Shown here one piece after another: positions 467-62,856 of a stretch of 64,000 nucleotides of DNA. The notes under the pieces were generated by a model that did not search any database, had not been told where the DNA came from, and saw only the letters and a program-made list of their open reading frames with translations. The translations under genes were made by a program, and so were the position numbers. Where the stretch lies: positions 5,586,976 through 5,650,975 of the forward strand of contig OX387187.1 in assembly GCA_947561395.2 (NCBI GenBank), read 5' to 3'. Positions within the stretch are counted from its first letter, which is position 1; each line of letters opens with the position of its first letter. Origin of the DNA: Buxus sempervirens (lineage: Eukaryota; Streptophyta; Magnoliopsida; Buxales; Buxaceae).

Positions 467-613
467 TTGTATCCGACACAAGTCATCGGATACAAGAAGA
501 CCTTTCTATATCCGACACAAGTCGTCGGATACAAGCAGGTATTATTGTATCCGACGACATATGTCGAATACATATAGGTGTCCTTGTAGCCGACCTGAGT
601 TGTTGGATACAAG
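467..613 (+). repeat. Palindromic repeat array in solo LTR (TATCCGAC type)
   Basis: Four successive imperfect palindromes of the form TTGTATCCGAC..GTCGGATACAA, each about 30 bp. They start near 468, 507, 546 and 587 and are separated by short spacers. The last two are decayed (GTCGAATAC, GTTGGATAC). The array lies about 170 bp upstream of the LTR TATA box, so in the U3 region. The same motif recurs at 4396-4503, 3688-3752 and 60203-60352. Confidence 0.8.
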
Positions 614-9665: not shown

Positions 9666-11044
9666 TACGACTGTGAGACATGGGAAAAAATCAAATCTAA
9701 TGATTTCCTCAATCATCACACGGGATTAAATCAAACAAAGAGTCGCCACCATTCAATTTAGGTGTGAATGGACACCAAAATATTAAATAAGCACAAAAGG
9801 CAATTTTAGGGCAAAATATCCCTCCTAAAAAAAACAACCAGAGATGGGTAAGGGGATTAGGTTATGAACAGGGGAAGGTGTTAGGCACCCCTATTCATCC
9901 ACACAAGGTGGTTTCCAGGCATTGTTCATGTTTAAATAAAGGAAAAAGCTTGCTATAAAAATCAGGAAAAATCACAAAAAAGGCAAAAATATATGGTTTT
10001 TTCATATGAATATTCTGATTGATCCAGAACTATCAAATATGATCATACCATTCCTAGGGTTTCATGATAAAATAAAATCAATTTAAAGTGAAAAATCCAA
10101 AAATCTGGTTTCAAGTCAAAATTCTAGAAATCTAGAAAAATATGATTTTTATAAAATATTTTAAAATTGAACTTGAATAGTCCAGGACATAAATAAAGCC
10201 CAAATTTCACATTAAATCAGAAAATAAAAACCAAAAATACCCACGTTGATGAAAAACACCAAAAGGGGAGAACTTAGACCGTAGGGTCTTCTCTCAATAA
10301 TGAAAAACAATTTAAAAAACATCTCATGAAACCCTAGAATTTATTTTCAGGCTTCTAGATTCAGATCTACCATATTGATCATGATAAATCCAAGATCCTA
10401 GCCTAAAACCACGAAAATCACGAAAACAGTGCTGTAGGTGCAAAAGTGGCAAAAATCCAAATTTTGGCAAAAAGAGAGGATCTCATGCTATAAACATCAC
10501 AGATTCATGTAATTCATTCAGATATATCATAAAAAGCATTAAAACATGATCAGGATATTTAAAACAACCACATCTCACAAATTAGAGCACATGGGGGTCT
10601 ACCCTACGGATCCACCTGTTCCCCTTTCCCCTAGTTCTCTCTTCACGTTTTACGGCTAGAGAGACTCTTGAGGTAGTTGGAGATAGGTTTGGTTATACAA
10701 ACACAATCACAGGCTTTACTCTAAAAAAAAAGGGAAAAACAGATATGGGGTTCTATTCTAGGGATCCACCTGTTCCCCTTTCCCCTAGTTCTCTCTTCAC
10801 GTTTTATGGCTAGAGAGACCCTTGAGGTACTTGGAGACAAGTTTAGGGATACAAAAACAGATATGGCCTTATTCTACAGCAATAGAGATGATCCTATTAC
10901 ATCTAGAATTGAAGACAGAAAATAAAAAGGGATAGGGGACTTACCTGGATTGAGCAGGCAGAGCAGCAGGAGTTCTTCTCTTGGAGCTTCTTAGAATTCC
11001 TTGGACTCAAAATTTCGTGGCCCTTAGCTAAAGGAAAGAGCCTC

Positions 11045-11052
11045 TATTTATA
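11045..11052 (-). promoter_or_regulatory. TATA box in element E left LTR
   Basis: TATAAATA on the minus strand (GTGTCTATAAATAGAGGC). It is identical to the copy at 30778-30785 in the 5' LTR. In this 3' LTR copy it would drive read-through into left-flanking DNA. Confidence 0.65.
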
Positions 11053-11252
11053 GACACACCCAGGGGCAAGGCTGGTCCAAAAGGATATATCCTGATCCTC
11101 AGGATAGAGTGAAAATTGGAGATAATGCCCATCCATAGCCAACCAAGGTGGCTTCAGCGAATAAAACACTTAATTCGCTCGTTTAAAGATATATTGGACT
11201 TCAAATAAAGCTCGGCAATCGAGAGAAGGACAAAACTTGCACGTGTCTTTAA

Positions 11253-11366
11253 TGCCCGTAAATGATTTACGGTCCAATGGTGACCGTATTGGTACTACGG
11301 GCGCGCCTGCCCGTAGATATTTTGCGGGCAAGATCGGCCCGTGAAGCCAATACGGGCAAAGCCTGT
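11253..11366. repeat. CCCGTA/TACGGG palindrome array, left LTR
   Basis: Half-sites of GCCCGTA and TACGGGC (with variants ACGGTC and GCGGGC) alternate in opposite orientation, with spacers such as GCGCCT and AAGCCT. About nine half-sites occur in 114 bp. The array is upstream, on the minus strand, of the LTR TATA box by about 200 bp. Confidence 0.85.
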
Positions 11367-11460
11367 TCATTCTATTTTTAGGCCTTTTTGACCTGTTTTA
11401 AGCTCTAATTACATGTTTTTATTATTTTCTCATTTGGCTGTGCAATTTGGGGTGTCTACA

Positions 11461-11475
11461 GCTGCCCCCTCTTTG
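11461..11475 (-). promoter_or_regulatory. Polypurine tract of element E
   Basis: On the minus strand CAAAGAGGGGGCAGC directly precedes the 3' LTR start TGTAGACACC. It fits the plus-strand primer site and matches the PPT of element A. Confidence 0.8.
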
Positions 11476-11810
11476 CTGGTAATTGGAACCAATTACAAGC
11501 AGAGAGCAAAAAGACCCACCAATTGCACTTTCTGAAATTTTTGTATAATCAATTGCACTTTGCAAGGATTAAATGGATGATTTTTGAAAAAAAGAATTGA
11601 TTGTGGAAGATTTGCTAAGAAATCCCTCAGCTTAAGGGCCAAATCCTCCTCTCTCCTCTCACTGAGCACTTGTGGGCTATGAAGTGAGATTTGAGACAAA
11701 ATTTTTACACAAAAGTGGGTAAGGTGACAATCCTTGCAACTTACAATTAATACAAACATTAATCTCCTAAAAATTGTGAGAAAATGATAAAAATATGCTT
11801 TTTTGGCTTC
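11476..11810. other. Non-coding spacer between PPT and first palindrome array
   Basis: A+T-rich DNA at the 3' end of the sense transcript. A frame at 11493-11969 on the minus strand crosses it and the array but shows no domain. I see nothing else in it. Confidence 0.5.
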
Positions 11811-11915
11811 GCCCGTATTTGGCTTACGGACATACCTGCCCGTAGAGGTTGCACGGGCGACCGGGACCGTAGTGCTTTCACGGGCGTCTGAAGCCCGTAC
11901 TGAGTTTACGGATTT
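11811..11915. repeat. CCCGTA/TACGGG palindrome array ahead of antisense gene 1
   Basis: Starts GCCCGTATTTGGCTTACGG and continues with GCCCGTAGAGG, CACGGGCG, ACCGTAG, CACGGGCG, GCCCGTACTG and TTTACGG. The motif is the same as in the LTR arrays. It lies immediately upstream of the presumed first exon of the PMD gene. Confidence 0.85.
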
Positions 11916-11919
11916 TATT

Positions 11920-13404
11920 CTCTTCTTAAGACCGCGAACGCGAACTTTTTCTCTTCTGCTCGCATTCAAGCCCTAATTCTCTGCGACCGTATCTTTTCCT
12001 ACGGTTTTCCTTCTCCTTCTTTCAATCCCCGACGAACACTGTTTTTCTCCGGCAAGCTTCTCATTTTTCCGGCGATTCTCACTGTTCTTCGGCAACTCTT
12101 TCGACCTGCTCATTCCGGCGACTGTGGACTTTCGCCTTTCATTTTGGTGAGGCACGAATTGTTCTTCTGAAATCTCCTTCCTTCTGCGAACAGGTATGTT
12201 TCTTTCCAATAATTAATACTTCAATTCCATGATTGAATGTCTTTGCATTCTGATCTTGAACGAATCCATACAATGCCTCTGATTTGCAGTTGTATTTGGC
12301 CAAAATCCACTATAACAAATTTGATAAATGCATGATTTTTCTTGTGTCTGATTCGAGAAGAATCCTCCAACTATTTATTTGTGCGTTGCAATCATGCATG
12401 TCATGCTGTAATATCTCTGTTTATGCTTGCTTATCCAGACAAATTCCTTGTATTTCACTGTTGTATTGACAAATTCCCAATTCTTTGTATATGCTAAATT
12501 GCTGTCTGCTAAACTTTTCTGTTCTGTATTATTGCTTACATGATCCTTGAGGCTTTGCATTAAATCCCCAACAAATATTCATCCTGCTAATAACCCATGC
12601 ATAGACAAAATTTTGATTGTCCCTTGATTGAGATGAGCCCACGTTTTTCCATATCACTGTCTGAAATAGAGGTAATGATATCCCTCTTCTGCAATTTTTT
12701 CTTCTTGAAGCGAACAGACTTGATTGCTGTGTTTGCTTCCTTTTCTTACAGTAATTCTGGAATTGCCTTGTCTATGCCATTGTTCTTTTGAAAACTTTGT
12801 TCTTTTGAAAACTTGAACACTCCAAATTCTTTGATAATTCCCCTTTTTTGTGAACCTGAATGATAAACATGGCTTTAATCTTTATATCCAAATTAACTCC
12901 CTTTCTTTGCAATCATTGGTATATGCTCTACTTTGGGCATGTTTGTAAATTTATTGCATGATCTCAATTTGAAGCTAAACACTTGTAGGTTCTGACATGA
13001 ATCAATTCATGACCCAAATGCTATATCTTGGCATTAAACAACTAGTTTTCCAAAATTTGTTCCTTCGTGCCAGTTTAAGCATGCCTTGATTTTCCTGAAA
13101 CCAAGTAAAATAAATGATTAGATATATTTACAAAAGATAAATTAATATTAATCTTTAGCACACATTTTCTCTTTTCTTTTTCTTTTCTTCATATACAAGA
13201 GGCCTATGCTTCTTATAAATTTTATATAATATAGAAAAATAAACTCCTTCAGCTATCTTCCGATTTGATTGGGAGCTTCTGAAATATTTTCTTTCATTCT
13301 CCATTTTTCTTTTTCCTGCAAATCAATTAATCTTGGTTAGAATGAAAATTAAGCAATTAAATTTTCACAAGAATAATTAACCAACTCCCTGATTTGAACC
13401 GTAG
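11920..13404 (+). other. Predicted 5' UTR exon and 1.2-kb leader intron of the PMD gene
   Basis: About 11920-12193 is CT- and CCGG-rich, like a plant 5' leader, and ends in a good donor, CAG/GTATGT (exon end 12193). The stretch 12194-13404 is T-rich and intron-like and ends AACCGTAG directly before the ATG at 13405. I infer a leader intron. The exact transcription start is unknown and no strong TATA box is seen. Small frames at 12284-12791 have no domain. Confidence 0.45.
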
Positions 13405-16321
13405 ATGGCCCGCCTTCGATCAGCTTCTAGGGATCCTGCGGATGAGCCTTCCTCCTCGAGGGTTAGGCGAGATCCTGCTGATGTGGCCTCGTCTTCGAGG
13501 ACCGAGAGGGATTCTGATTCTGATATCCCAGATTTCCCTTCTGGGGATTCGCGTGAGGCGACCCCAGAGGTATACTCTAACCTTTCTGCAATTTCCTATC
13601 CTTTCCCAAAATACATCTTCCTGATTCTTCCATTATTTTCTTTTAGCCGGCTGTTGAGGCTTCTGGCAGAGATAGGAGCCGTAGCAGACGCAGAGCTGGA
13701 GGCAGAGATGGAGGCCATGATGAGGGCCATAGAGGAGGCCGCCGAGGGGGCCGTGGCAGAGATGAGGCCAGGACCAGGGTTGAGATCCCTGAGGAGGTGG
13801 CTGCCCAGATTAGGGACACCGATCTTCTGCATGGTTTGAGGACTCATCCCTCAGCGTGCGTTAGGGCGGATATCCCTTTGGAGTATCCGATGTCCCACTA
13901 TAGAGGGAGCTGGGCCAGCTTTACTAAATTTTTGAGAGCTTGCAGTTCGGCCTATCGTCGGGAGCTAGGATTGTACGGTTTCGGCATGTTTATCACCATC
14001 CCGGACGTTCGCTTGGATCGAGCCCTTATTGCAGCATTATTGGAGAGGTTTTTCCCAGAGACCTTGAGCTTCCACTTCCCAGATATTGAGATTGGGATTC
14101 GGCCTTCTGATTTCACGCTCATCACCGGGATTAGGATGATCGGTGATGTTATTCCTGAGATGACGATGCCAGAGGCTGATGAGATCGCTGGTTATCTTGG
14201 ATATATTGTGCTGCCTCCAGAGGCCTAGGATCAGGGGAGAGCTAGATTGTCTCTGACATGGTTGAGAGAGACTTTCAGGAGGAGGCAGTTTAGCCAGCTT
14301 GCTGCCGGTGACCATGTTTTTCCTTTCGCCTTCAGATTTCTTTTTCTGTATATGATGGGATCCTGCTTCTTCCCAGAGGACACGACTTCAGTTAGTCCTC
14401 ACTTCTTGAGTCTTCTGGGAGATCTGCAGCGGACGAGGAGGTATGCCTGGGGCCCGCTCATATTTGGTACTATTCTGGCTGGCCTGCGCCGATCAGTGAG
14501 TGGCCTCTCTACTTCCAGAGGGGCTGGAGTTGGGTACAGGTTCTTCTGGCCCTTCTTGCAGGTGAACCTTATTTCCCTTCTTTTTCTTTATCCCTTTCTT
14601 TTTATCTCTCCTTTTATATTCTTCTGACTATTTTCTTCTTTCTTGCAGTTTTTTGCTAGGGTTTATATACCCTATTTCCGCCCTACCTCTACGATGCCTG
14701 AGGAGACGTATCCCATGGCACTTAGATGGTGTCATGTAGAGCATGACTCTGAAAAGAGTCGTCCCAGGTCCGCCCGGGCCCACTTAGACAGGTTATACCG
14801 GTCTGAGGTAATCTTCTTTAATTCCTCTACTTCTTCTTTTCTTTTCTTCCTGGATCGCATATCTGATGTCCTGTTCTGTTTTTCAGCTATTTGTCCCCAG
14901 GATGGAGGACATTCATGAGGTGCTGGCCCTGCAGGCTGCGAGAGATGATGCATTTGTCCTTGACCAGAGACGACAGAGATACCAGTTCTTTATTGGTCAG
15001 CTGGGCAGCATCTGGTACTGCGGCGAGCGCTTCTTCTTTCAGCATGTGGGAGAGCCGCGGATTCCTGCCATCCCGCCAGATACTACTCCTTTCTATCCTC
15101 CTATGCCTGTTGATCCTGCCCAGTTCTTAGATTGGACTGAGGCAGAGACATTATTAGAGGAGGGTGACTATGATGCCTGGTTCAGGCGAGCTTCTGTTGG
15201 GTGCCTCATGTCACCCATGCCTGTCCGTGGCGGAGTCACGGAGATAGGAGGGGTAGTGATTAGGGCCTACGACACCACGGTATGCCTTCTTCCTTCTCTG
15301 ATTTTCTATTTCCATTTCATTAGCATTTTTTTCTGACTTCTTTCTTTGCTATTTCAGGAGGCTCAGTTGGCAGAGATCAGGTCTCGCTATGCTGATTTAG
15401 AGCGCCAGCGTGATGCAGCGATCGCTGAGCGGGACGCCCTCTATATCACTATTTCCGATCTCCGGGGGCAGCTAGCCAAAGCCCAGGGCCAGGAGGGTCC
15501 ATCTGATGCACAGGACCAGGCGGGTCCGTCTGATACTCAGGTTAATTTCTTCTTTTATTTCCATTCCTGCTTTTGTATTAGCCTATCTTGTTCTGACTGA
15601 ATTTTTTTCTTAGTTTCAGGAGTACACAGCTGGCCCCTCTTCACCTGCTTCACCCGTGCCTATGCATTTCCGGGATGAAGTGTTTTCTGTGGCACGGGTG
15701 GAGTTTGTGACGTCTCCCAGTCCAGTGGAGGTTCCTGCAGCAGAGCCCGAGGTCGAGGCTGATATTGTACCTGCTGCTGAGGACGTGCCAGAGTCTGCCC
15801 CAGTAGCTGAGACTGCTCCTGCTGCATCTGCTGATATAGATATAGACTCGGCTATGGACGCCGCTGGGGTAGAGCCTACCGTGGAGACTGCAGTGATGGA
15901 GGAGGCTACAGCTGATCCTGTAGAGCCCGAGGTAGAGATGGCTGCTACTGAGCCTGTGGAGCCGGAGGTTGATGTACCTGGGACATCTGCTCCTGCTGGT
16001 CCTGTTAGTCCTGATATGGAGGATGCGGAGGTGACACATGCTGCTGTTGATCCTTCTGCGGATTCTTCCCGTACAGAGTCTGATCCCGATTCTACGGGAT
16101 ATGTAGATACTTCAGGGTACGTCCCTCCTAATCATCCCACTGCTGGCCTTGTGCCTTTATATATGTGGCATGATATTCAGTCTGTTTTGAGCAGGATGAC
16201 GCGTAGCACGGCCCGCAATGTTGTGCGGCATGTCTTTGAGCGCAGGCGATCTACAGGCCGTGGTCGAGGCAGAGGACGAGGCCGTGGCCGTAGGGGTGGA
16301 CCTGCATGGCCATTAGATTAG
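13405..16321 (+). CDS. Antisense gene 1 of element E: plant mobile domain (PMD) protein, six exons, one in-frame stop
   Basis: Exons read as 13405-13569, 13647-14561, 14649-14807, 14887-15279, 15358-15540 and 15620-16321. Every intron is GT..AG and phase 0, so one frame of about 838 codons results. Exon 2 has an Arg/Gly-rich stretch and then the PMD core: residues LIAALLERFFPETLSFHFPD and LITGIR, then FLFLYMMGSCFFPED and RRYAWGPLIFG, as in plant mobile domain (MAIN-like) proteins. Exon 5 is a coiled coil. Exon 6 is acidic, rich in Val-Glu-Pro, and ends in a basic RG-repeat tail. The TAG at 14226-14228 interrupts exon 2 in frame, probably from TGG, and would truncate the protein inside the domain. 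The strand is opposite to gag-pol. A nuclear, nucleic-acid-binding role is inferred from the RG-rich parts and the PMD family, whose host members act in silencing. Confidence 0.82.
14226..14228 (+). other. Premature TAG stop in PMD exon 2
   Basis: The frame before (13797-14225) and after (14229-14561) is the same and both sides carry conserved PMD sequence. This single codon therefore breaks an otherwise open exon. A G-to-A change of TGG, typical of deaminated methyl-CpG or CHG sites on the other strand, would explain it. Confidence 0.8.
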
Positions 16322-16524
16322 GATTCTTCCATGTACCTTTGTATTTTTTGGCAAAAGTGATGTAAACATTCATATATATAGAAGAAGTTTGTTTTATTTC
16401 CATTTGTGTTCTTTCTTCTTTATTTACAGTATTTATTATCTGATGAATGTTAAAACAGGGACAGGTGAAGCTTAGGAAAACCAAAGAAATTGAAACTTCC
16501 CACTTTTTTGCATTTTTTCGAAGG
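16322..16524 (+). other. 3' region of the PMD gene
   Basis: Short A+T-rich stretch with TATATATAGAAG and TGTAAACATTC, plausible as 3' UTR. No clear AATAAA is present. Confidence 0.35.
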
Positions 16525-16657
16525 AACCGTACTTATACTACGAGCAGGCTGTGCCCGTAAAGTTACTACGGGCGTGCGTTGCCCGCGAACTTTTCACGGT
16601 CAGGCGTGTCCGTAATTTCTATACGGGCGAGCCTTGCCCGTAATATAATTACGGAAT
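16525..16657. repeat. CCCGTA/TACGGG palindrome array ahead of antisense gene 2
   Basis: About ten half-sites in 133 bp, including GCCCGTAAAGTTACTACGGGC and ATACGGGCGAGCCTTGCCCG. It ends about 20 bp before a TATA box. The GAGCCT spacer between oppositely oriented half-sites also occurs in the 28043-28181 array. Confidence 0.87.
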
Positions 16658-16678
16658 TTACTGTCTTACGATTTTTTC

Positions 16679-16686
16679 TATATAAA
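16679..16686 (+). promoter_or_regulatory. TATA box of antisense gene 2
   Basis: TATATAAA in CTATATAAACTCC, 99 bp before the ATG at 16778 and right after the palindrome array. The spacing fits a plant core promoter with a leader of roughly 65-70 bases. Confidence 0.7.
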
Positions 16687-16777
16687 CTCCTAGGGAACAT
16701 CATTGTGACACTTTTATTAATTGAAAAACTCCCTGAGCAGGTCTTTTCTCACTTTCCTTGGCTTCTTTGGCGCTTCC

Positions 16778-18594
16778 ATGGCTTCCCCTACGCCGCTTTC
16801 TCCTGCCGTTGAATCTCCTCCTGCACGACAACCTGTTAGATCAAAACCTCCTAATCTTACCAGGTACAATATTGTGGATTCTTTTTATGATAGATGGGTT
16901 AACTCCATGACCCTTGATGAGGAGATTCGTTGGGATTCCATCCACTTAGGGCACATCCTACACCTCCCTAAAATTCCCTTTAAGTGGGAAATCATTGAAG
17001 CTTTGATTGGCCACTGGGTACCTGAGCTGAATCTCTTCCGTTTTGATGACAAAGAGATGACTCCCACCATAGAAGAGATTGAAACCATCCTTGGCCTTAG
17101 ATTTTCTGAAAAAGTTGTGAACCCACCCCTAAAGCTTAGTTATAAAAAAGAGGCTTCCACTTTCTTGGGTATAGGGAAGAAGGACTTAGGAAATTCTGAT
17201 GCACTATTGACCTTGTCCAAGACCTTTTTGACTGAAAAACTTCTGAGGAGTAATGACAAGGACTCTAGGTTTAATGCATTGACCCTGATAGTGGTCAATC
17301 AGCTGCTTTTTCCACGGGGTGATGACCAGGTTGACTTGGCTCTTATCTCAGTTATCTGTCAGGTTAGGGAACGCGAGAGGTTGGCCCCTATGATCCTAGC
17401 AGAGATATATCAGGCTCTTACTGATTGTTATTTCAGGAAGAAGAAACGCTTCCTTGCCTGCGCCCCTATCCTACAGGTAAAATATGCATGTATTTTTTTT
17501 CTTCTATTTTTTTTTCTTTCTATTCTTCCTTTCCTTTCTTTTTTTTTTTCTTTTTTTTTTCTTCTTCTTCTCTTTTTTCTTTCTTCTCTTTTTTTTCTTT
17601 TTCTCTCTCTTTTTCTTCCTTTTTTTTTTCTTTTTCTTTTTTTTTCTTTTTCTTTTTTTTTCTTTTTGGAAATAAATTGAAATACTCCCTTTTTCTGCAG
17701 CTTTGGTTGCTTGACCATCTTAGCCAGGTTGAAGAAATAACTCGCCGCTTCTTTCCAAGATTGAAAGTTCCTGTTTTGATGAGCAATAGGGGATGTCCTA
17801 ACATCCAAGGTGGCAAGCAAGGCTGGTTCACTTTCTTGGGTACTCTCCAGGATGATCAAGTGAGATGGCCTGGCACTTATCAGCCTACTCCAGAGACAGT
17901 GATTAGCTTTAGGGATAAAAACTTTCTGGCCCTAGCAGGCTTGAAATCTGCTGTTCTCTATCTTCCTTTGAGGGTTCTTCGGCAATTTGGAGCGACTCAG
18001 GGAATTATGATTCCCACAGGTTATGAGAGCTTTATAGGGCCACTTACATCAGCCACCATGGGGCTAAATGCTCAATTAATGAAAGAGTGGTCCTATGTTT
18101 GCTTTCTGCAGGGTCCCGTCTTTTCTGAGTCCCATGTGAAGGACTATCATTTCTGGATCAAAGAACAGGTGCAGAGTCATGCCCCAGTACCAGAGGATCC
18201 TCCTGCAGTTCTTCCTCCTACTTATGAGGACATTCTGGAGTCAGAAAGGGCAACCCATAAGCGGCTTCAACAAATATGGGTACGGGAGGCTCAAGAACTT
18301 AGGATAAAAGTCCTTGTTCTGGAGAGGAAGCTTGAAGAGCAGAAGTCTGGCCGCATTGCCATGGAGAAGAAACTTGAAGAACAAAGGCAAGCTCGTCGCT
18401 TTGAAGTCCGAGTGATGCGGAAGAAGTATCAGGATTCCTTGGCTGACCTTAGGGCGTTGAGGAGCAAGCTTTCTTTTTCAGATGAGGTCATCTCCTTTTT
18501 GAGTGATCCTGATGCAGAGGGTACTTCTGGAATCATTGCAACTCAGGCAGCTAGGATTAGGGAGCTTGAGGAGCAGTTAGGGAGTAGGGATTAG
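16778..18594 (+). CDS. Antisense gene 2 of element E: DUF7745-like coiled-coil protein, two exons, intact
   Basis: Exons 16778-17476 and 17701-18594, intron GT..AG in phase 0, giving 530 residues ending at TAG. The ATG at 16778 (MASPTPLSP) is the first in frame after the TATA box. The N-terminal half has LTRYNIVDSFYDRW. A central block has NQLLFPRGDDQVDLA, followed by MILAEIYQALTDCYFRKKKR and CAPILQ joined across the intron to LWLLDHL. This matches plant proteins listed as DUF7745, which are mostly retrotransposon-derived; I assign it from memory of the motif pattern. About residues 410-530 form a heptad-rich Lys/Glu/Arg coiled coil, suggesting oligomers. The gene is not broken, unlike its neighbour. 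It converges on pol, whose end is at 19558. Confidence 0.78.
17477..17700 (+). repeat. Poly-pyrimidine (CTTT)n intron of antisense gene 2
   Basis: Almost only C and T from about 17491 to 17668, then a short unique stretch and TTTTTCTGCAG. Such a low-complexity intron can slip in replication. Apparent Phe- or Lys-rich ORFs on both strands here are artefacts. Confidence 0.85.
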
Positions 18595-19557
18595 ATTCTT
18601 TCATCATTTTTTTTCTTTCATTTTTTCCATACTTTTTTACAAAAGCAAACTCCATTAGTGGAAAGATATTAGATTTAATTCAAAAATAGGTTTTATATTA
18701 TTGGCCTCAGAATTCTCAGATGCTTATAAAAACAGAAGTTTTATGAAAAAGTATTTGATTTCTCATCATTGGCCAAAGTATAGTTTTTTTTTTTTTTTTT
18801 TGAAAGCTGATCCAAAACACTTAATCACATATAATTAAAGGAATTAAAATCAGGTTGAATAATGAAAATGGTAGTCCAAGCAATAGGGAGAGACCAAATT
18901 TGTCTACCCCATGACCTTTAGAATCATCCCCTAATGATTTTTCCTTCATGATTGGCCTTGCTAATCTGCTCAGTTTCCAGTGCTCATGCTGATTTAAAAC
19001 TTAGACCCCATGATCAACTCAACCCTTGATTCTTTTCTTTTTTTTTTCTTTTTTTTCTTTTTTTTTCTTTTTTTCTTTTTGCCCCTCTTGCCCCTAGTGC
19101 CAATTACGGTTTTCACGAGGGTTCGCCTCTGCATTCCGTCATCACCAATCTTACTCTGAAAGTTGAATGAATATACTAAAATCACCGAGGTCTTAATAAT
19201 AGGACGAAACAAAGGCTAGGTTCGGTTTATGAAAGAAAAGGTATTAAAGGCTCAAAATTTTCTAAGTATGAAAATGGGTCAACTGGACTTACAGTCATGG
19301 TGAATTCAATCCCATTCCCCTTCTTTTGTATTTGGCATTTATTTGCCCCTATTTTTTCTTTTCTTTTTTTTTTTTTCAAAATTTTCTTTTTGCCCCTATT
19401 GGCCTTGCCCTTATTGGCTTTGCCCCAGTATAAGGCTGTAAGTCCAGTTTGGGTTTAACAAAAAAAAAGACGAACAGGCTCAAATTGGTTTGACTAAGGA
19501 TTCAAATTTTGGGATATAAAGAACAATGGCCTCAGATCATTTCCTAGTAATATTCAT
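18595..19557. other. Convergent spacer between antisense gene 2 and pol
   Basis: Non-coding, with T-runs at 18782-18800, 19030-19080 and 19350-19380. There are several copies of TTTTTGCCCCT(A/C)TTGGCC-like text (about 19080, 19345, 19388) and a decayed palindrome half-site, ATTACGGTTTTCACGAGGG, at about 19105. It presumably holds the 3' ends of both converging transcripts. Confidence 0.5.
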
Positions 19558-22500: not shown

Positions 22501-23184
22501 TGGCACTATATTTGCAAGCCATTCGGGGTATGTGGAAACTGCCAAGAATCCGGCTTGGAATTGTTTAACCACTTCATCTTTAACCTTCAATGTCCATTCA
22601 GGTTTTAACCTTCTCAGTTTCTGCTTAACTGGCTTAGAGTCTGGTAGAATGGGTAGCCTGTGCACCACCATATCTGTGTCTAACCCCGGCATATCCCGAT
22701 ACGACCATGCAAACACATCTTCATAATCAGCCAAAAATCGTATCATTTCATCCCGCTGTACCTCAGATAGGCATACCCCAATCTTCACTATTTTTGGGTC
22801 ATCTTCGGTCCCTAGGTTGATTGATATGGTCTCTTCAATATTGGGTTGGACCCCCTTTTCATGACGCTCTAATTGATATGTGATTTCTATTGGAACGTCG
22901 TTTTCTTCGTCCTCGGTCTCTTCTTCAACCCCCATTAGGTCAAAGTCGAGCTCAAGGTCGAAGTCATACTCATCCTGATCCAATTCCGTTTGCTTATATG
23001 GTTCATAAATGGTTTGGACCTTTTTGAAAACTTTATCTTTTCTAAAAAAAACTGAAAAATCTTTTTGTGTTATTTGAGAGCCTTCTACAAAATCTTTCCC
23101 TGAAGACGAAGGCTCATTAAAGCCTTCAGGAAAAGGGCATTCCACTAATGGAGTTTTTTTTTGGAAGCCATGTCTGTTTGCCAA
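19558..23184 (-). CDS. Element E pol: reverse transcriptase, RNase H, archaeal-type RNase H, integrase
   Basis: Open frame of 1208 residues. RT covers about 150-420 with the catalytic YVDD at about 338-341 and conserved VDYRDLN and MPFGLKNAG. A gypsy RNase H region follows (about 430-600). Then comes a second RNase H of archaeal type (about 630-760; FFDGAAN, NNIAEYEA, DSSLI), diagnostic of the Tat lineage. Integrase has an HHCC zinc-binding part near 870-900 and the catalytic core with GIDVIG (Asp near 929), TDNAS (Asp near 990) and a Glu near 1026, then a C-terminal domain with GPYVV and no chromodomain. The first residues overlap the gag frame over 23145-23184. All catalytic residues I checked are present. 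It copies and integrates the element. Confidence 0.93.
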   Translation of the reverse strand: MANRHGFQKKTPLVECPFPEGFNEPSSSGKDFVEGSQITQKDFSVFFRKDKVFKKVQTIYEPYKQTELDQDEYDFDLELDFDLMGVEEETEDEENDVPIEITYQLERHEKGVQPNIEETISINLGTEDDPKIVKIGVCLSEVQRDEMIRFLADYEDVFAWSYRDMPGLDTDMVVHRLPILPDSKPVKQKLRRLKPEWTLKVKDEVVKQFQAGFLAVSTYPEWLANIVPVPKKDGKVRMCVDYRDLNKASPKDDFPLPHIDILVDNTAVHSLFSFMDGFSGYNQIKMAKEDQEKTAFITPWGTFHYTVMPFGLKNAGATYQRAMTALFHDMIHKEMEVYVDDMIAKSCEEEDHLINLKKVFDRLRKYSLRLNPAKCVFGATSGKLLGFIVSRRGIEIDPAKAKAIIEMPSPRTEREVRGFLGRIQYISRFIAQLTAICEPIFKLLRKNNPTVWNNDCQEAFDTIKEYLLNPPVLVPPTPGRPLILYLSVLETSMGCVLGQHDDTGRKERAIYYLSKKFTEYEAKYSPLEKTCCALVWVTQRLRHYFLSHSTLLISRMDPLKYLFEKPALTGRTAKWQLLLSEFDLTYITQKAIKGQAIADHLAAHPLPEYQPLKTNFPDEAILFAEEEEGESSWQMFFDGAANMNGNGIGAVLIKPDGAHIPIAVKLRFQCTNNIAEYEACIIGLQAALDHEVEELDVYGDSSLIIFQTTGEWKTKDHKLIPYHQYLEEISTKFTRISFNYMPRAKNQFADALVTLASMVSMPEGVDIRPLEIEVRDEPAYCLVLEETPEEEVPWFQDIKNFLNDRSLPENVTSTEKRTIQRLAGQFLLSGGQLYKRSHNDILLRCVAKTESERIVETVHGGVCGPHMNGHMLAKKILRLGYYWSTMEHDCYMHVKRCHLCQVYADNKNAPPSELHSMTSPWPFSMWGIDVIGMISPKASNGHRFILVAIDYFTKWVEAASYANIMSSHVIKFLKHNIICRYGLPSAIVTDNASNLKNKDMRKMCEQFQITHHKSAPYRPKMNGAVEAANKNIKKIIQKMVVSFKDWHEMLPLALHAYRTSIRTSTGATPYSLVYGMEAVLPVEVEIPSLRVLMEAELEEAEWIQSRHDQLNLIEEKRLKALSHGQLYRKRMARAYNKKVKPRTFQEGNLVSKKILPFLEDPRGKFKPNWEGPYVVKKVLSGGALILTEMDGKDFPEPINSDAVKRYFP
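23145..23184 (-). promoter_or_regulatory. Gag/pol overlap with A9 run, candidate -1 frameshift site
   Basis: The gag frame reads TCC AAA AAA AAA CTC CAT TAG. The pol frame across the same nine A residues (plus-strand T9 at 23154-23162) reads CAA AAA AAA ACT. Pol is therefore in the -1 frame relative to gag, and both are open over 40 nt. A slip on the A-run would fuse gag-protease to pol. A recent one-base loss from an A10 run would look the same. Confidence 0.55.
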
Positions 23185-26100
23185 ACAAACGCGGCTTCAA
23201 AAGTAAGAGGAGTTTCCTCCCAATTATTCAGAATGAAAGAATCTGGGGCAGGGATACAAGCCTGCTCCTCAAGCTCAGGATCTGCGTCAGAGATCACCAG
23301 TACTGGGTGAGTTGCATCGCCTGCTTCTTCTGTAGGGCTAGTTCCAGATGGAACTTCTACTGCAGCCCAATCAATAAAAGGTAGCTCCTCTGCTACTTTT
23401 TCTTGCTTGCCTTCTGTCATGGCGAAGAATGCCCCTACGTCCTCAGAAAAGTCCTGCTCCTGTTCTGCCTGTAGCCCAGGCCCACCAGATGCTTGTGGAG
23501 GTGGAGGTGGAACATATGGTTGTATGGTGGAGGGTTTGGGTTTCTGGAATGGGTTGATATTGTAGTATGGAGGTTTGGACTGATCCTCAGGAGGAGACAG
23601 CTGAATCATGTGAGACAGCTTAGGAAAAGTTTCCCTGATGTGCGGGAATTTCATAGCTTCTATCTGCCCCTGACTTTTCCATTTCCTTGGCTTGGACCCC
23701 AATCCTGCTCTGTGAACCATCTTCTTAACCTGTACTGGTTCTATCCTTCCTTGCAGGTTAACCCCCAGACCTTTTCCAGGGTGAAAATGGTACTTTTCTA
23801 GCACATTCTTGACCATTTTTTCAGCACAGGTCAATTTTCCTTCTTTTTCCTGATACCCCCCAGGTATATAATTCACAGCTTCAAATTGAAAAGAGTGAAA
23901 TGCCATCTTATCTGCTGTCATTTCCGTGTTAATACAGGGTACATCAGGGGACCACATGGGGGGAACCAAATTTTCGGCCAGGACGGTAATCACCTTTTGC
24001 CCTCTAATATACTTGACTCTTTGGTGGAGGGTAGATGGTATGGCCCTAGCTGTATGAATCCACGGCCTTCCTAGGAGTAGGTTGAAGGCTGCAGGTATAT
24101 CCATCACTTCAAATGTGATGTTGAAAATATACGGTCCAATTGTGACCGGCAGTTCAACCTCCCCTAGGGAGTGTGTTTTAGAGCTGTCAAATGCTCTTAT
24201 AATTCTTCCGTTTTGTTTTATTTTGTTTCGCTCCAGATTGAGCTTAACAAAGGTTATCAATGGGCAGACATTGAGAGCTGACCCATTATCAATCAGAACC
24301 CGGGCTATCATGCAACCCTTACTGAGTACAGCTATGTGCAATGGGTCAACATGATGGTACCCTGCTGGACTGATTTCAGTTTCAGAAAAAGTTATCACAT
24401 TGTGGGATAAAATTTGACCAACCATCCGGCCTAATTGGTCTGGTTCAATGTTTTTAGGCACATGGGCCCCCTGGAGTATCCTTAACAAGGAGTCCCTATG
24501 TTTTTCAGAATTTAACAATAGGCCCAGTATTGAGATCTGGGCAGGGACTTTGTTCAACTGCTCAATGACATTGAACTCACTCTTTTTTATTACCTTGATG
24601 AGGTCAGCAGCCTCGCTGTCAATTACCTGAGGGGCCTCTTCCCCTACCTTGGCCTTGCCTTTATTTTTTTCTTCTTCTTTATCCTTCTCTGTTTCTTTCT
24701 GTTTTTCTTCCACCCCTACACACTTTCCTGACCTCATCATAAGGTTTACTTCTTCCTTGCTTTCAACTGCAGGGCATGTAGTGGTAAATGCTTCACTGTA
24801 GTTCCATGGTACAGCCGATTCAATGTAGGAAGGCTTAGGGACGTTTACCACCAATGGGGGAAGTTTGGACTTGGCAATGGAAGTCTGAGTAATAGGAACA
24901 TTAACAACCAATGGAGGAAGTTGTTTTGGTTGGGGGTTTGCAGAAGTGACTGATGCACTAAGGGGGTCACAATTTATGACCAATGGTGGCTTAGACTGAA
25001 TGGGCGGAGTAAAAGGGGATGGATTATAATTAATGACCAAAGGTGGGTTGGCAATGTTCATCTGGGCCATGAGGGATGAGACCCGGTCCAAAGATGAGCT
25101 AATGTTCTTTGCAGCACTATCATTCCCCTTTGAAATCATATTTATTTCTTTGCCTTCACTTCTCCTGTCAAAATATACTTTGACCGTTGTCCCTATGGGA
25201 GCAATTAATTGAGATGGGTCAAAGGTTATTTTGTCAGAAGAGATGACTCCTATGACATTAGATGGGCCTGCCCCGTGATGCTGGGGCAGTGGGTTTTGTC
25301 CAATATCTGTTCTTTGAGGATTGGAAGCCCCTGTATTGAAAGACAGGGTATTCTGGTCTAGTAAGTCCTGAATGGCATGTTTTAAAGGCCAGCACTTGTC
25401 TGTAGGGTGCCCAGGTGCACCCATATGGTAATCACAAGTGGTGGAGGGGTCAAAATTTCTCCCCTTAGATGCATTCGGATTAGGTTCTCTTAAGGTGATA
25501 TACCCTCCTTGCAATAAAGTGGGCAGCAATTGAGAGGGAGTCATTGGAATAAGGGTGAAAACCCTATTTCTCCTTGCTGCAAAATAGGCATCCTTTTCCT
25601 CTTTGGTAAAAACCCTTTTTTGGTCTGAAGGTGTTGTTGGAACATTAACCCTCATAGGGGCCTGGGTAGGTGGAGATGGAGTAGGAAAATGAGCAGGTAC
25701 GTTGATTTGTATGGGCTTGTTAGGGCCAGATGGTGGCTGTACCATGTTTACCTCACCCTCCTTCTTGTTCCCATTCTTTTTTGTTCCGCTTCCTTTCTTT
25801 AGGTTGGGGTCCTGCTGGCTAACCATGGCAGAGTGGTCAATTATCTTACCTGACCTTATTCCATCCTCAATTCGGTCAGCCACCTGAACCAAAGCTGCAA
25901 AATTAGTGGTGGTCTGACCCACCAAGTGGCTGTAGAATGGTTGACCCAAAGTGCTTATGAAAGTAGAAATCATTTCCTGTTCTAGCATGGGTGGCCTGAC
26001 CTGGGACGCCGTCTCCCTCCATCTCTTGGCATATTGCCTTACAGTCTCTTCTCTTCCTTTGCTCATTCTCATGACGTCATACCTATCTGGCATGATCTCT

Positions 26101-26777
26101 GAATTGAACCGGTATTGAGTTAGGAATGCATCAGCTAGGTCCTTCCATCTTTTGATCTTTCCATGGTCTAGAGTAGCAAACCATCTTAATGCGGTTCCAG
26201 TCAGGCTCCTTTGGAAAAGTTGGATTAGAACACCTTCATCCTGCCCAAACTGGCATAGGGCACCACAGTATAACTTTAGGTGGCTCATAGGGCACCCAGT
26301 GCCATCATACTTGTCCAAGTCTGGGCACTTAAACTTGGCCGGCAGGTTAACATTGGGGTATAGGCACAGGTCTTCAAAATTGGTGCCTCCAAAGTTGTTT
26401 ACCCCTTTGACTTCCCTTAGTTCATCTTGGATCATTTCTAGCTTATGCATGAACTTTCTTTCAACCTCTTCCCTTATCCTTTCCTTTTCCTTAGCCTTGT
26501 TTGATTCAGCTGTCTCATCCCTGGTCAGTATAGGTTCAGGGGTGGGTTCATAGACGGGTTCAGGAGTTGATTGCACTGGAGGTGGAACGTTGACTTGGGG
26601 TGGAGGTGCAGGGTTGGATGTGGATGCCTGGTTCTGGGCCTGCATTTGTTGGGCCTGCACTTGTTGGGCCTGTACTGACAGTATGTTCTCTAGCATTCGG
26701 GCTAGTCCTGCCACTTGTTCTTGGAGTAGAACAACATCTGGATGCGGAGCATCAACTTCATCTTCAATAGGATTCAT
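23145..26777 (-). CDS. Element E gag-protease with G-patch
   Basis: 1210 residues from the ATG at 26777-26775 (MNPIEDEVDAPHPDV). A Gln-rich N-terminus is followed by the retrotransposon gag domain (about 165-295; LTGTALRWFATL). Next come a zinc-knuckle-like CDYH..GH..DKC near 449, long Pro-rich linkers, an aspartic protease near 829 with active site IDNGSALNV (DNG in place of DSG or DTG, usual for this lineage) and a G-patch near 995 (FHPGKGLGVNLQGR). Gag forms the particle and binds RNA. The protease cuts the polyprotein. The G-patch is a known addition in Tat-type elements. The frame ends at 23145 just past the A9 run where pol can be entered. Confidence 0.92.
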   Translation of the reverse strand: MNPIEDEVDAPHPDVVLLQEQVAGLARMLENILSVQAQQVQAQQMQAQNQASTSNPAPPPQVNVPPPVQSTPEPVYEPTPEPILTRDETAESNKAKEKERIREEVERKFMHKLEMIQDELREVKGVNNFGGTNFEDLCLYPNVNLPAKFKCPDLDKYDGTGCPMSHLKLYCGALCQFGQDEGVLIQLFQRSLTGTALRWFATLDHGKIKRWKDLADAFLTQYRFNSEIMPDRYDVMRMSKGREETVRQYAKRWRETASQVRPPMLEQEMISTFISTLGQPFYSHLVGQTTTNFAALVQVADRIEDGIRSGKIIDHSAMVSQQDPNLKKGSGTKKNGNKKEGEVNMVQPPSGPNKPIQINVPAHFPTPSPPTQAPMRVNVPTTPSDQKRVFTKEEKDAYFAARRNRVFTLIPMTPSQLLPTLLQGGYITLREPNPNASKGRNFDPSTTCDYHMGAPGHPTDKCWPLKHAIQDLLDQNTLSFNTGASNPQRTDIGQNPLPQHHGAGPSNVIGVISSDKITFDPSQLIAPIGTTVKVYFDRRSEGKEINMISKGNDSAAKNISSSLDRVSSLMAQMNIANPPLVINYNPSPFTPPIQSKPPLVINCDPLSASVTSANPQPKQLPPLVVNVPITQTSIAKSKLPPLVVNVPKPSYIESAVPWNYSEAFTTTCPAVESKEEVNLMMRSGKCVGVEEKQKETEKDKEEEKNKGKAKVGEEAPQVIDSEAADLIKVIKKSEFNVIEQLNKVPAQISILGLLLNSEKHRDSLLRILQGAHVPKNIEPDQLGRMVGQILSHNVITFSETEISPAGYHHVDPLHIAVLSKGCMIARVLIDNGSALNVCPLITFVKLNLERNKIKQNGRIIRAFDSSKTHSLGEVELPVTIGPYIFNITFEVMDIPAAFNLLLGRPWIHTARAIPSTLHQRVKYIRGQKVITVLAENLVPPMWSPDVPCINTEMTADKMAFHSFQFEAVNYIPGGYQEKEGKLTCAEKMVKNVLEKYHFHPGKGLGVNLQGRIEPVQVKKMVHRAGLGSKPRKWKSQGQIEAMKFPHIRETFPKLSHMIQLSPPEDQSKPPYYNINPFQKPKPSTIQPYVPPPPPQASGGPGLQAEQEQDFSEDVGAFFAMTEGKQEKVAEELPFIDWAAVEVPSGTSPTEEAGDATHPVLVISDADPELEEQACIPAPDSFILNNWEETPLTFEAAFVWQTDMASKKKLH

Positions 26778-27019
26778 GGCTCGAGCTCTTGATCTGGTTA
26801 CAGGAGCTATGATTGTGAGTGTATTAGTACCTGGTGAAAAGATAAAGGAAAAATATCAGTGCCAATTTAATCTCATTCACATGTCTAGGTATGCCTATGT
26901 GCAAGCTGGGTGAACACGAGTTTGGATTTGTTTCTTTCTTTATTTGCTTCTTTTTTTTTTTTTTTTTGAATTGAATTGAATTGTTGGAATATTCTAGGGC
27001 TTCCAACAGGTCCCACAAA

Positions 27020-27895
27020 AGAGAGAAAGGTCTGAAATTCAAAGGCTTTCAGAGGCCCGGGGGGGGGGGGGGGTTTGAAAAAGGTCTGAAATTCAAAGGC
27101 TTTCAGAGGCCCAGGGATATTTTTGGAAAAAGTCTGAAATTCAGAGGCTTTCAGAGGCCCGGGATTTTTGATGAAAGTCTGAAATTCAAAGGCTTTCAGA
27201 GGCCCAGGGATGTTTTGATGAAAGTCTGAAATTCAAAGGCTTTCAGAGGCCCAAAAGGAAAATGTCTGAAATTCAAAGGCTTTCAGGGGCCCAGAAGTTC
27301 TGAAATTCAAAGGCTTTCAGAGGCCCAAAAGATAAAGGTCTGAAATTCAAAGGCTTTCAGAGGCCCAAAAGGAAAAGGTCTGAAATTCAAAGGCTTTCAG
27401 AGGCCCAAAAGTTCTGAAATTCAAAGGCTTTCAGAGGCCCAAAAGAAGAAGGTCTGAAATTCAGAGGCCCAACAGTTCTGAAATTCAAAGGCTTTCAGAG
27501 GCCCAAAAGAAAAAGGTCTGAAATTCAAAGGCTTTCAGAGGCCCAACAGTTCTGAAATTCAAAGGCTTTTAGAGGCCCAAAAGATCTGAAATTCAAAGGC
27601 TTTCAGAGGCCCGGAGTTTTTTGAGAAAAAGTCTGAAATTCAAAGGCTTTCAGAGGCCCGGGGTTTTTTGAGAAAAAGTCTGAAATTCAAAGGCTTTCAG
27701 AGGCCCAGGGATTTTTGAGAAAAAGTCTGAAATTCAAAGGCTTTCAGAGGCCCAGGATTTTTTGAAAAATCTGAAATTCAAAGGCTTTCAGAGGCCCAGG
27801 ATTTTTTTTGAAAAATCTGAAATTCAAAGGCTTTCAGAAGCCCAAGAGTTTTGAAAAAGTCTGAAATTCAAAGGCTTTCAGAAGCCCAAGGAACC
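27020..27895. repeat. Leader tandem repeat, about 21 copies of a 28-bp core
   Basis: The core TCTGAAATTCAAAGGCTTTC followed by AGAGGCCC recurs every 32-52 bp with short variable linkers (AAAAGGAAAAGG, GATTTTTGAGAAAAAG). The core contains the inverted arms CTGAAA..TTTCAG, so each unit can fold into a small hairpin in RNA or DNA. One copy (about 27453) is shortened. A G-run of about 14 sits at 27060-27073. The array lies in the gag leader. Confidence 0.9.
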
Positions 27896-28042
27896 TTTCT
27901 CTCACATTTTTTTTCTTTTAATTATTTTGTTTGTTTTTTTTTTTTGAAGCATTTTATTCAAACTTGTTTCCCTTTATCATTATTTAAAGGTTAAAAGAAT
28001 ATTTTAGTGGGAAAAACTGATTAAAGTTGAATATTCCGAGAA

Positions 28043-28181
28043 AACCGTATACACAGTACGGTCCAGCCCTGCCCGTATTCAAATTACGAGCCTGCCGTGA
28101 CCGTATGCAATCCACGGGCGAGCCTAGCCCGTATGACCAATACGGGCAAGCCCAGCCCGTGTACCAAATGCGGTTTTACGG
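28043..28181. repeat. CCCGTA/TACGGG palindrome array in the 5' leader
   Basis: About ten half-sites including ACCGTATACACAGTACGGTC, GCCCGTATTC, CACGGGCGAGCCTAGCCCGT and AATACGGGCAAGCC. The motif is the same as the three other arrays of element E, but it lies inside the transcribed leader about 1.2 kb from the PBS. Confidence 0.85.
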
Positions 28182-29378
28182 AACTCTGTTATATTTTTCC
28201 AGTTTTTACATGGTTTGATCACTTTCATTGTTCATCCAAACGTACGGTTCACCCATTGCAGAGCTTCTAAACTGCCCCAAAGTGGACTTTGGCCTTTTTG
28301 TTAAAACACATGCTTGGGAGGGCACATGTACCCTCCAAATTGACATCATACTCAAGAATTTGATACCCTTTTGTTGCCTCTTGTGTGTACATAGGGTAGG
28401 ATTGATTCTAAACAGAGTTAGAAACTCTTCCTATGGGCTGCACCAACTTTAGAAAATATGCATATTTTGGGACCAATTTTATCCCAAACCAAAGGGCACC
28501 ATGACACCCCTATGACATGAAAATAATGCAAAACAATAGGATTACCTTGTTACCTTGTTTACCTTGAATATAGCATCCGCATTATGCCCTGGTTTGTAAG
28601 CCATGCACACGGCCTTCCCACAATCATACAAACCCATATTCCCACGTAATTGTGTACTTTAGCCAAAAACTTGTAACTCCACCTTCAAGCGTAGGGGTTT
28701 TGGGTTTTGGCTTAATGGCAACTTAGCACTTAAGCCTAGTGATGACCAGAATCCCAGATCCACATTATCATCACATCATTAGCTCAAAATTCTAAGGTGA
28801 ATGTTTTCACTTTCGCTTTCCGAAGTATCGACCTCGTTGCGCCAAGCTACACACATTCGGGTTCAACTTCCTATAGGTTAAGGGTAGGCTGTGTAAAAAC
28901 AAAAGGTGCATAGTGCATTGTAAAAATAGGGTGCATTCACAACGTCCCAAACCCTTGCCACTCTTTTCGCAGCCATGCATAAACAAACCAAGGCATAATA
29001 GGAAAGCATATTTAAAATAAACAAGTAAATAAAGCAATCCTATAGCACCCAAAACATGCTCATAAAAAAAATCATCTAATCATGCAAACATATGATCATG
29101 TTATACACCCAAAATCATCATGGAGATCATGCTGCAAATTGAAACATGCTATCATAAAAATATAGCAAGAAATAAGCATGGTTCAGCAAAACGGACCTCC
29201 CCTACGCATGTTTGTAGAAACAATCCTATAAATCCAAATTAAGCATGTTTCTACCCCCATGAATTCCTAAGCAATAATTCAGATTTAAAACATACTCAAC
29301 ATGCTTAAGAACACAAAATAGCAAGCAAATCAAAAAATCAAAACATGAACAAAAACACCTAAAGGCTGAAATCCACAA

Positions 29379-29397
29379 GTCCCCAGCAGAGTCGCCA
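29379..29397 (-). promoter_or_regulatory. Primer binding site of element E
   Basis: Minus strand TGGCGACTCTGCTGGGGAC, two bases after the 5' LTR end. It starts with TGG as required to pair with a tRNA 3' CCA. A tRNA-Arg-type primer is what I recall for Tat/Ogre elements with this sequence. Confidence 0.75.
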
Positions 29398-30777
29398 GTT
29401 GTGAGACATGGGAAAAAATCAAATCTAATGATTTCCTCAATCATCACACGGGATTAAATCAAACAAAGAGCCGCCACCATTCAATTTAGGTGTGAATGGA
29501 CACCAAAATATTAAATAAGCACAAAAGGCAATTTTAGGGCAAAATATCCCTCCTAAAAAAAACAACCAGAGATGGGTAAGGGGATTAGGTTATGAACAGG
29601 GGAAGGTGTTAGGCACCCCTATTCATCCACACAAGGTGGTTTCCAGGCATTGTTCATGTTTAAATAAAGGAAAAAGCTTGCTATAAAAATCAGGAAAAAT
29701 CACAAAAAAGGCAAAAATATATGGTTTTTTCATATGAATATTCTGATTGATCCAGAACTATCAAATATGATCATACCATTCCTAGGGTTTCATGATAAAA
29801 TAAAATCAATTTAAAGTGAAAAATCCAAAAATCTGGTTTCAAGTCAAAATTCTAGAAATCTAGAAAAATATGATTTTTATAAAATATTTTAAAATTGAAC
29901 TTGAATAGTCCAGGACATAAATAAAGCCCAAATTTCACATTAAATCAGAAAATAAAAACCAAAAATACCCACGTTGATGAAAAACACCAAAAGGGGAGAA
30001 CTTAGACCGTAGGGTCTTCTCTCAATAATGAAAAACAATTTAAAAAACATCTCATGAAACCCTAGAATTTATTTTCAGGCTTCTAGATTCAGATCTACCA
30101 TATTGATCATGATAAATCCAAGATCCTAGCCTAAAACCACGAAAATCACGAAAACAGTGCTGTAGGTGCAAAAGTGGCAAAAATCCAAATTTTGGCAAAA
30201 AGAGAGGATCTCATGCTATAAACATCACAGATTCATGTAATTCATTCAGATATATCATAAAAAGCATTAAAACATGATCAGGATATTTAAAACAACCACA
30301 TCTCACAAATTAGAGCACATGGGGGTCTACCCTACGGATCCACCTGTTCCCCTTTCCCCTAGTTCTCTCTTCACGTTTTACGGCTAGAGAGACTCTTGAG
30401 GTAGTTGGAGATAGGTTTGGTTATACAAACACAATCACAGGCTTTACTCTAAAAAAAAAGGGAAAAACAGATATGAGGTTTTATTCTAGGGATCCACCTG
30501 TTCCCCTTTCCCCTAGTTCTCTCTTCACGTTTTACGGCTAGAGAGACCCTTGAGGTACTTGGAGACAAGTTTAGGGATACAAAAACAGATATGGCCTTAT
30601 TCTACAGCAATAGAGATGATCCTATTACATCTAGAATTGAAGACAGAAAATAAAAAGGGATAGGGGACTTACCTGGATTGAGCAAGCAGGCAGCAGGAGT
30701 TCCTTCTCTTCTCTTGGAGCTTCTTAGAATTCCTTGGACTCAAAATTTCGTGGCCCTTAGCTAGAGGAAAGAGCCTC

Positions 30778-30785
30778 TATTTATA
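30778..30785 (-). promoter_or_regulatory. TATA box driving element E genomic RNA
   Basis: Minus strand GTGTCTATAAATAGAGGC. It resembles the TATA block of the A, F and G LTRs. Transcription should start near 30750 and run leftward through PBS, leader, gag and pol. Confidence 0.7.
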
Positions 30786-30985
30786 GACACACCCAGGGGC
30801 AAGGCTGGTCCAAAAGGATATATCCTGATCCTCAGGATAGAGTGAAAATTGGAGATAATGCCCATCCATAGCCAACCAAGGTGGCTTCAGCGAATAAAAC
30901 ACTTAATTCGCTCGTTTAAAGATATATTGGACTTCAAATAAAGCTCGGAAATCGAGAGAAGGACAAAACTTGCACGTGTCTTTAA

Positions 30986-31099
30986 TGCCCGTAAATGATT
31001 TACGGTCCAATGGTGACCGTATTGATACTACGGGCGCGCCTGCCCGTAGATATTTTGCGGGCAAGATCGGCCCGTGAAGCCAATACGGGCAAAGCCTGT
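30986..31099. repeat. CCCGTA/TACGGG palindrome array, right (5') LTR
   Basis: Copy of the array at 11253-11366, with one visible change near 31024. It lies about 200-320 bp upstream of the minus-strand TATA box. Confidence 0.85.
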
Positions 31100-31198
31100 T
31101 CATTCTATTTTTAGGCCTTTTTGACCTGTTTTAAGCTCTAATTACATGTTTTTATTATTTTCTCATTTGGCAGTGCAATTTGGGGTGTCTACAACGAC

Positions 31199-34865: not shown

Positions 34866-34915
34866 TTCCTCCCTTGTTGAAATTAGAGCTTGTCCTCAAG
34901 CTCAATGGCTGGAAA

Positions 34916-35573: not shown

Positions 35574-35612
35574 CCATTTGCTCCATTCCTTTGGACATTG
35601 GCTATAGAAACT

Positions 35613-37353: not shown

Positions 37354-37358
37354 GTGGC

Positions 37359-62819: not shown

Positions 62820-62856
62820 TATTGCAACTGTGATGATGTTATTAATATGTGCTAGC

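Follow-up and report, generated by a model that had tools for sequence, protein, structure and literature searches.

The question raised by this locus, a 64-kb stretch of the Buxus sempervirens genome (contig OX387187.1, positions 5,586,976 to 5,650,975; hereafter the window), is what might read the arrays of a short palindrome within one of its long terminal repeat (LTR) retrotransposons, element E. The arrays may well be operators for a dimeric, sequence-specific DNA-binding protein that would control the sense and antisense promoters of E together. The likeliest reader would then be the protein with a plant mobile domain (PMD) and DUF7745 that the element itself encodes.

The E unit is a 21-bp palindrome, mostly G[C/A]CCGTA-N7-TACGG[G/T]C, and occurs in arrays of 4–5 units at 27/28-bp steps. 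The original prediction, made from the letters of the window, described dense CCCGTA/TACGGG arrays in E, and all five clusters were found at the coordinates it gave: in both U3 regions, before antisense gene 1, before antisense gene 2 and in the gag leader (Table 1). The half-sites that it saw in alternating orientation are present and can be described more precisely as the paired arms of palindromes, set exactly 7 bp apart. Permitting up to 2 mismatches over the 12 half-site letters and spacers of 4–12, we counted 23 units in E (mean 1.56, maximum 6 in 50 dinucleotide shuffles); 20 have a spacer of 7 and all of these lie inside arrays, whereas the other 3 (spacer 8 or 10) lie outside. Exact half-sites number 21, compared with a mean of 2.4 and a maximum of 6 in 50 such shuffles. 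A scan for spacer-7 arrays (at least 4 units with a shared core) returned 11 core/start combinations in the real window, a figure that is not a count of distinct arrays, and none in 20 shuffled windows. Scanning also bore out the claim that no comparable array exists elsewhere in the 21.5 kb of E.

When the fifth array is left aside as the copy in the other LTR, the four distinct arrays of E contain 18 units and thus 36 half-sites: GCCCGTA (14), GACCGTA (5), GCCCGTG (5) and nine rarer forms. The central CG is present in all 36. Agreement across these arrays is 0.81 in the arms and 0.26, the chance level, in the loops. The observed/expected (o/e) ratio of CpG is 1.13–1.71 in 9/9 arrays, compared with 0.36 for E outside its arrays.

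Table 1. Coordinates of element E, its genes and the palindrome arrays of the window
Feature	Position	Strand	Description
Element E	9672..31193	-	Tat/Ogre-type LTR retrotransposon, 21.5 kb, gag-pol on minus strand
U3 array, 5' LTR	30987..31090	-	4 units; 103-206 bases from LTR start; TATAAATA 201 bp further
U3 array, 3' LTR	11254..11357	-	4 units; copy of 5' LTR array
Array before presumed start of antisense gene 1	11811..11913	+	4 units; no TATA within 300 bp
Array before antisense gene 2	16525..16656	+	5 units, one weak; TATATAAA 22 bp downstream
Gag leader array	28043..28175	.	5 units, one weak; putative promoter role only
Antisense gene 1	13405..16321	+	Multi-exon; weak PMD matches on two pieces; in-frame stop codon 14226-14228 in this copy
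Antisense gene 2	16778..18594	+	Exon 1 16778-17476, intron 17477-17700, exon 2 17701-18594; 530 amino acids; DUF7745/PMD
Family D U3 array, LTR start 366	469..612	+	GTATCCGAC-N7, 4 units, 39-bp steps
Family D second LTR, start 4296	4399..4501	+	2 units by scan and a third, weaker
Family G U3 array, LTR start 60416	60203..60342	-	GTATCCGA[AC]-N7, 3 units and one degenerate, 37-39-bp steps
Family F U3 array, LTR start 62263	62854..62986	+	GACCGCA-N7-TGCGGTC, 4 units and one degenerate, 28-bp steps

The expectation that other copies of E carry the arrays was confirmed. The array before gene 2 was found in all 20 of the copies sampled for it (11 contigs), a sample drawn from the 150 best protein matches without regard to the array. 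Every one of them has 4 units, the number that the same scan scores in E, and TATATAA. Compared with E, the arms differ at 35/1400 positions (2.5%) and the flanks at 48/1780 (2.7%), whereas the loops differ at 91/700 (13%) and the spacers at 81/539 (15%). Variable columns number 12/70 in the arms and 31/62 in loops and spacers (Fisher P=8e-5, with columns treated as independent). All four stretches that extend to the U3 array have it with 4 units; the gene-1 array is present in 2/2 copies (3 units; 2 units before the stretch ends) and the leader array in 3/3 (4, 4 and 3 units). These counts from ten stretches leave out two that were misplaced (L284, L289) and those ending before the array concerned (L280 and L283 for gene 1, L287 for the leader).

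More distant relatives also have leader arrays (5 units in L226 and 4 in L227, found by coordinate; L212, found by motif) and, in L225, a U3 with 4 units, again found by coordinate. Ten E-like U3 regions have units at the offsets seen in E, L218 keeping two and L195 three. Among these and E itself, agreement is 0.84 in the arms, 0.90 in the core, 0.60 in the loops and 0.75 in the flank; pairs with a perfect unit are omitted from these figures because perfect units had served to find the copies. Of the half-sites of E-like U3 regions, perfect units again excluded, 80/86 retain the core CG. In L217, the gene-1 array is fused straight to the start of gene 2 and the intervening stretch is missing, a junction that probably arose by recombination between arrays. 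L207 and L223 resemble E from the LTR up to a point shortly ahead of the gene-1 array; beyond it they diverge, and the 401 and 341 bases read there contain no array. Region L224, chosen as the 3' part of a second copy, showed no similarity to E.

Repeated palindromes with conserved arms and free loops are the footprint expected of a dimeric DNA-binding protein. Tandem-repeat turnover, or palindromes that serve as insertion targets, would make the arrays non-regulatory. Unit number does vary, with 4 and 3 in two LTRs of family D, and the loops of family F are near-identical, like those of young tandem copies. In L201 (~1342, corresponding to window position 62960), the start of an E-like LTR adjoins F-like LTR sequence broken off inside the F palindrome array, as if an E-like element had inserted there. 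However, slippage would leave arms and loops alike, and both across the arrays of E and across the 20 copies of the gene-2 array the arms are kept and the loops are not. Because of this contrast, we consider such an origin highly improbable.

The original prediction placed the motif at every promoter of E, and this is correct for part of the arrays. Those in U3 and before gene 2 precede TATA boxes, TATAAATA and TATATAAA respectively, at the distances given in Table 1. However, the 300 bp after the gene-1 array contain no TATA[AT][AT], and none is present on the gag side of the leader array, where the only candidate is TATATTTT, 14 bp off and on the other strand. Since U3 and the accessory genes have this operator in common, they may be under joint control.

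The window also has such arrays outside E: the LTRs of three further families (D, F and G) have U3 arrays of the same CCG-N11-CGG layout with other letters, which had been overlooked. A motif-free scan returned an array of E geometry with the core CCGCA (family F), and a scan for the CCG frame added families D and G. All 6 TGTAGACA-type LTR starts in the window (two each in E and D, one each in F and G) have an array between the LTR start and the TATA box. The letters are G[C/A]CCGTA in E, GACCGCA in F, GTATCCGAC in D and GTATCCGAA or -C in G, and the units are spaced at 28 bp in E and F and at 37–39 bp in D and G. A retroelement at 34417–42304 (similar ends 96% identical, pol ~30%) gave no such array in either window scan. 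Family D (366–33227) has its first LTR at 366–2856 and its second, which seems to be split by insertions that include E, from 4296.

The layout extends well beyond the window. From the 676.5-Mb genome, 30 LTR starts were sampled by a 19-base LTR-start pattern alone (2,139 pattern sites, control 0) and not by the motif. At least one CCG-N7 unit is present in 28 and at least two in 27 (0 of 300 mononucleotide shuffles). Counting seven near-identical neighbours (L247–L253) once, at least two units are present in 21 of 24. These seven (C1:8465188-8557139) follow each other at steps of ~15.3 kb and resemble a tandem array of one element. Across the 30 starts, spacer 7 accounts for 91 units and each of the spacers 3–6 and 8–12 for 0–8. 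The starts fall into letter groups: ATCCGAC; ATCCGGC/ATCCGGT; ATCCGGA/ATCCGGT; GTCCGCA; CCGTA-like; and AACCGC-like, the last with less regular spacing. The way in which the letters change suggests that a protein may read the palindromes.

The coding content of E provides candidates for such a protein. The LTRs (9672–11460 and 29400–31193) are 99.1% identical over 1795 columns, and the target duplication ACGAC lies on either side of the element. The pol open reading frame (ORF) encodes reverse transcriptase, RNase H, a second RNase H-like domain (RVT_3 at 637–755, between RT_RNaseH at 478–582 and rve at 922–1019) and integrase; gag has a profile match to G-patch. An additional RNase H between RNase H and integrase is described as a Tat/Ogre feature, and an extra ORF with a plant mobile domain as present in 57% of Ogre elements (PMC6317226; here and below, published systems are represented by excerpts of the cited papers). 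E has both the extra RNase H domain and an extra ORF with PMD, which lies together with DUF7745 in antisense gene 2. Ogre elements are further marked by a primer-binding site that is complementary to tRNA-Arg. Both antisense genes sit between pol and the 3' LTR. Exon 1 of gene 2 scores 60.5 bits for DUF7745 (PF24924, cut-off 26) and 40.4 bits for PMD (PF10536, cut-off 34.9), and its intron is placed by splice signals and the open frame. Two pieces of gene 1, searched apart, score 30.3 and 26.8 bits for PMD, below the curated cut-off of 34.9.

A first look with the DUF7745 exon 1 (16778–17428) gave 5,738 candidates in the genome. The 150 best copies that were scored are 98–100% identical and 146 of them have no stop, and these copies appear to be a recent large burst. 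The PMD/DUF7745 proteins of E are placed first as readers, as leading if unproven candidates, because their own genes are preceded by this operator, gene 2 has an open frame in nearly all of these best copies and the letters depend on the family.

Exon 1 of gene 2 gave nothing at E<=0.001 in a protein search and no match in a sequence search of the PDB. With the spliced protein, 17 proteins came up at E<=1, most of them from Solanum and 20–29% identical; the predicted structure of one of these (P0001) has a mean pLDDT of 32.4. Among viral contigs, the E-type palindrome occurred in 70 stretches and the F-type palindrome in at least 120, each with one palindrome and no array. Since no array was present, these were treated as chance. 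No relatives of the DUF7745 exon 1 or of pol were found in the viral contigs.

CCG has a fixed place in each half-site (CCG-N11-CGG), and the surrounding letters would set the specificity of a family or family group. Several dimers bound along an array would create a platform beside the promoter of the LTR and those of the antisense genes, from which one factor could switch gag-pol and the accessory genes together. A PMD/DUF7745 reader would act as an activator or anti-silencer, partly on its own promoter.

Several observations weigh against an operator read by the protein of E itself. CpG richness extends beyond the arrays, since the 200 bp past the gene-1 array (11914–12113), the presumed 5' leader of antisense gene 1, have an o/e of 1.71, unlike most of E. 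Loops and spacers of the gene-2 array (16525–16656) show five times as many differences per position as the flanks, which neutral change does not explain; some other force is also at work on the arrays. Coiled-coil heptads in the tail of gene 2 were rejected, as 80 of 500 shuffles were equally good, and dimer formation therefore draws no support from the protein. The ~1.4 kb between the LTRs of family D gave no match to the proteins of E, so this family would need a protein supplied in trans. The letters of E are also not private to E, and the folding of the arrays and the symmetry of some units are shared with RNA hairpins; each of these bears on a rival explanation.

The letters of E are carried by the distantly related LTR family K (for example L193), which has GCCCGTA-N7 units beside its TATA box and again ~0.9 kb away. 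The LTR of K has no DNA similarity to E. Between K arrays, two stretches (L228, 6.6 kb; L229, 8.8 kb) match the gag of E at ~43% protein identity, and neither of these two, in which a diverged PMD could be missed, matched the PMD queries of E. The proposal that the arrays are self-recognition sites agrees with the kept half-sites, their presence at sense and antisense promoters and in other copies, and the family-specific letters; family K speaks against strict self-recognition. Because K shares the letters of E, a host factor is the main rival. A host transcription or silencing factor, or a few related ones, would read the arrays as enhancers or repressors, the elements having evolved copies of its site and the letter types corresponding to paralogues. 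The genome contains 12,353 exact CCCGTA-N5..10-TACGGG sites, compared with 980 for a reversed control pattern, and the spacer is 7 throughout among the matches listed. However, the pairs of letters on either side of CCG vary between LTR groups while the frame is constant, which a single factor does not explain, and literature searches turned up no host factor that has a CCG-N11-CGG palindrome as its site. NAC- or SBP-type factors, considered for the CGTA core, were rejected, as the CCGCA, CCGAC and CCGGC families misfit the CGT core. Literature searches on LBD factors, another candidate, gave no usable paper. A precedent for host reading is provided by the BII boxes of Tnt1, repeated U3 boxes bound by nuclear factors (PMC3316501); these factors are defence-induced host proteins, and the excerpt describes no antisense promoters. 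On this evidence we consider a host reader rather unlikely.

The palindromes could also work as RNA hairpins in the full-length transcript, in packaging, dimerisation or small-RNA production. Judging from their positions, the internal arrays and the U3 of the 3' LTR would fall within the gag-pol transcript, and three arrays folded on the gag-pol strand have z of -4.7 to -7.7, with none of 200 shuffles as stable. However, such folding is expected of any inverted-repeat array. Among the 38 distinct units of the ATCCG type, 26 have matching pairs of inner letters in their two arms (10.5 by permutation). A hairpin would produce this symmetry too, but it may also stem from common ancestry of the unit positions. 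The arms of E units vary independently, with 100/126 matches compared with 101.8 by permutation (P=0.81 overall), and only 7/18 units pair at the most variable position. This lack of compensation favours DNA half-sites and provides no support for an RNA stem. The strict spacer of 7, the 27/28- or 39-bp steps and the position before TATA boxes likewise suit DNA sites better, and a role as hairpins seems quite improbable.

Among the closest known systems is VANC/VANDAL of Arabidopsis, with which the original prediction drew a parallel and in which short-motif arrays have been demonstrated to be read by an accessory protein that the transposon encodes (PMC5735166, PMC10398659). In both systems, short motifs form arrays in non-coding parts of a mobile element, related families differ in their motifs, and turnover is fast. 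The fast change of VANC target regions has been explained as escape from RNA-directed methylation (PMC10398659), and the change of loops and spacers in the E arrays recalls it. However, VANDAL motifs have the same orientation and E sites are palindromic with a 7-bp spacer, and the carriers are VANDAL elements there and LTR retrotransposons here. The candidate proteins also differ, being PMD/DUF7745 in E. DUF1985, a domain of VANC proteins (PMC5735166, PMC10398659), had no profile match in exon 1 of gene 2, and its best match, on a gene 1 piece (14229–14570), has 11.7 bits and E=0.27, below the cut-off of 35.1. The E system resembles VANC/VANDAL in its working and is not a member of it. The VANC21 motif occurs twice in the window, both times outside E.

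Other systems share single features with E. Grande gene23 and Retand TRP28 are antisense accessory ORFs in plant LTR retrotransposons (PMC7264820). However, the excerpts describe no recurring operator sites for them, the string 'palindrom' being confined to a reference of PMC11963269 and absent from the available text of PMC7264820, and the domain in E is PMD/DUF7745. MAIN and MAIL1 are host PMD proteins needed for the expression of genes sharing a promoter motif (PMC7156037, PMC9899485). The DOWN sequence of the MORC1 promoter, CATGCAGTTT, is absent from the window; according to the same excerpts, direct binding is not established for MAIN/MAIL1 either. No earlier description of arrays like those of E was found in the literature searched, which was mostly without subscription papers.

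Sequence-specific anti-silencing by a transposon-encoded protein is already established for VANDAL elements. More tentatively, Tat/Ogre elements in general might share a lineage-wide code of palindromic operators, in which the outer and inner letters would be family passwords read by antisense-encoded PMD/DUF7745 proteins. Each family would activate or de-silence its own promoters, both in the LTR and at the accessory genes, and coding-poor families would borrow a reader by means of its password. If this is true, Tat/Ogre LTR retrotransposons would have a palindromic, letter-coded equivalent of the VANDAL system, which would give the puzzling antisense PMD genes a purpose and explain the spread of coding-poor families alongside PMD-bearing ones. 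The genome provides thousands of natural site variants, the exact sites counted above being of one letter type, and 21-bp sites that differ by family lend themselves to simple direct binding tests.

The gag leader of E also contains, at 27020–27890, 19 tandem copies of CTGAAATTCA[A/G]AGGCTTT[C/T]AGA at steps of 34–74 bp. Two copies folded as RNA are not unusual (z -0.47). The repeat is an inverted repeat itself, with arms of 7 and a loop of 9.

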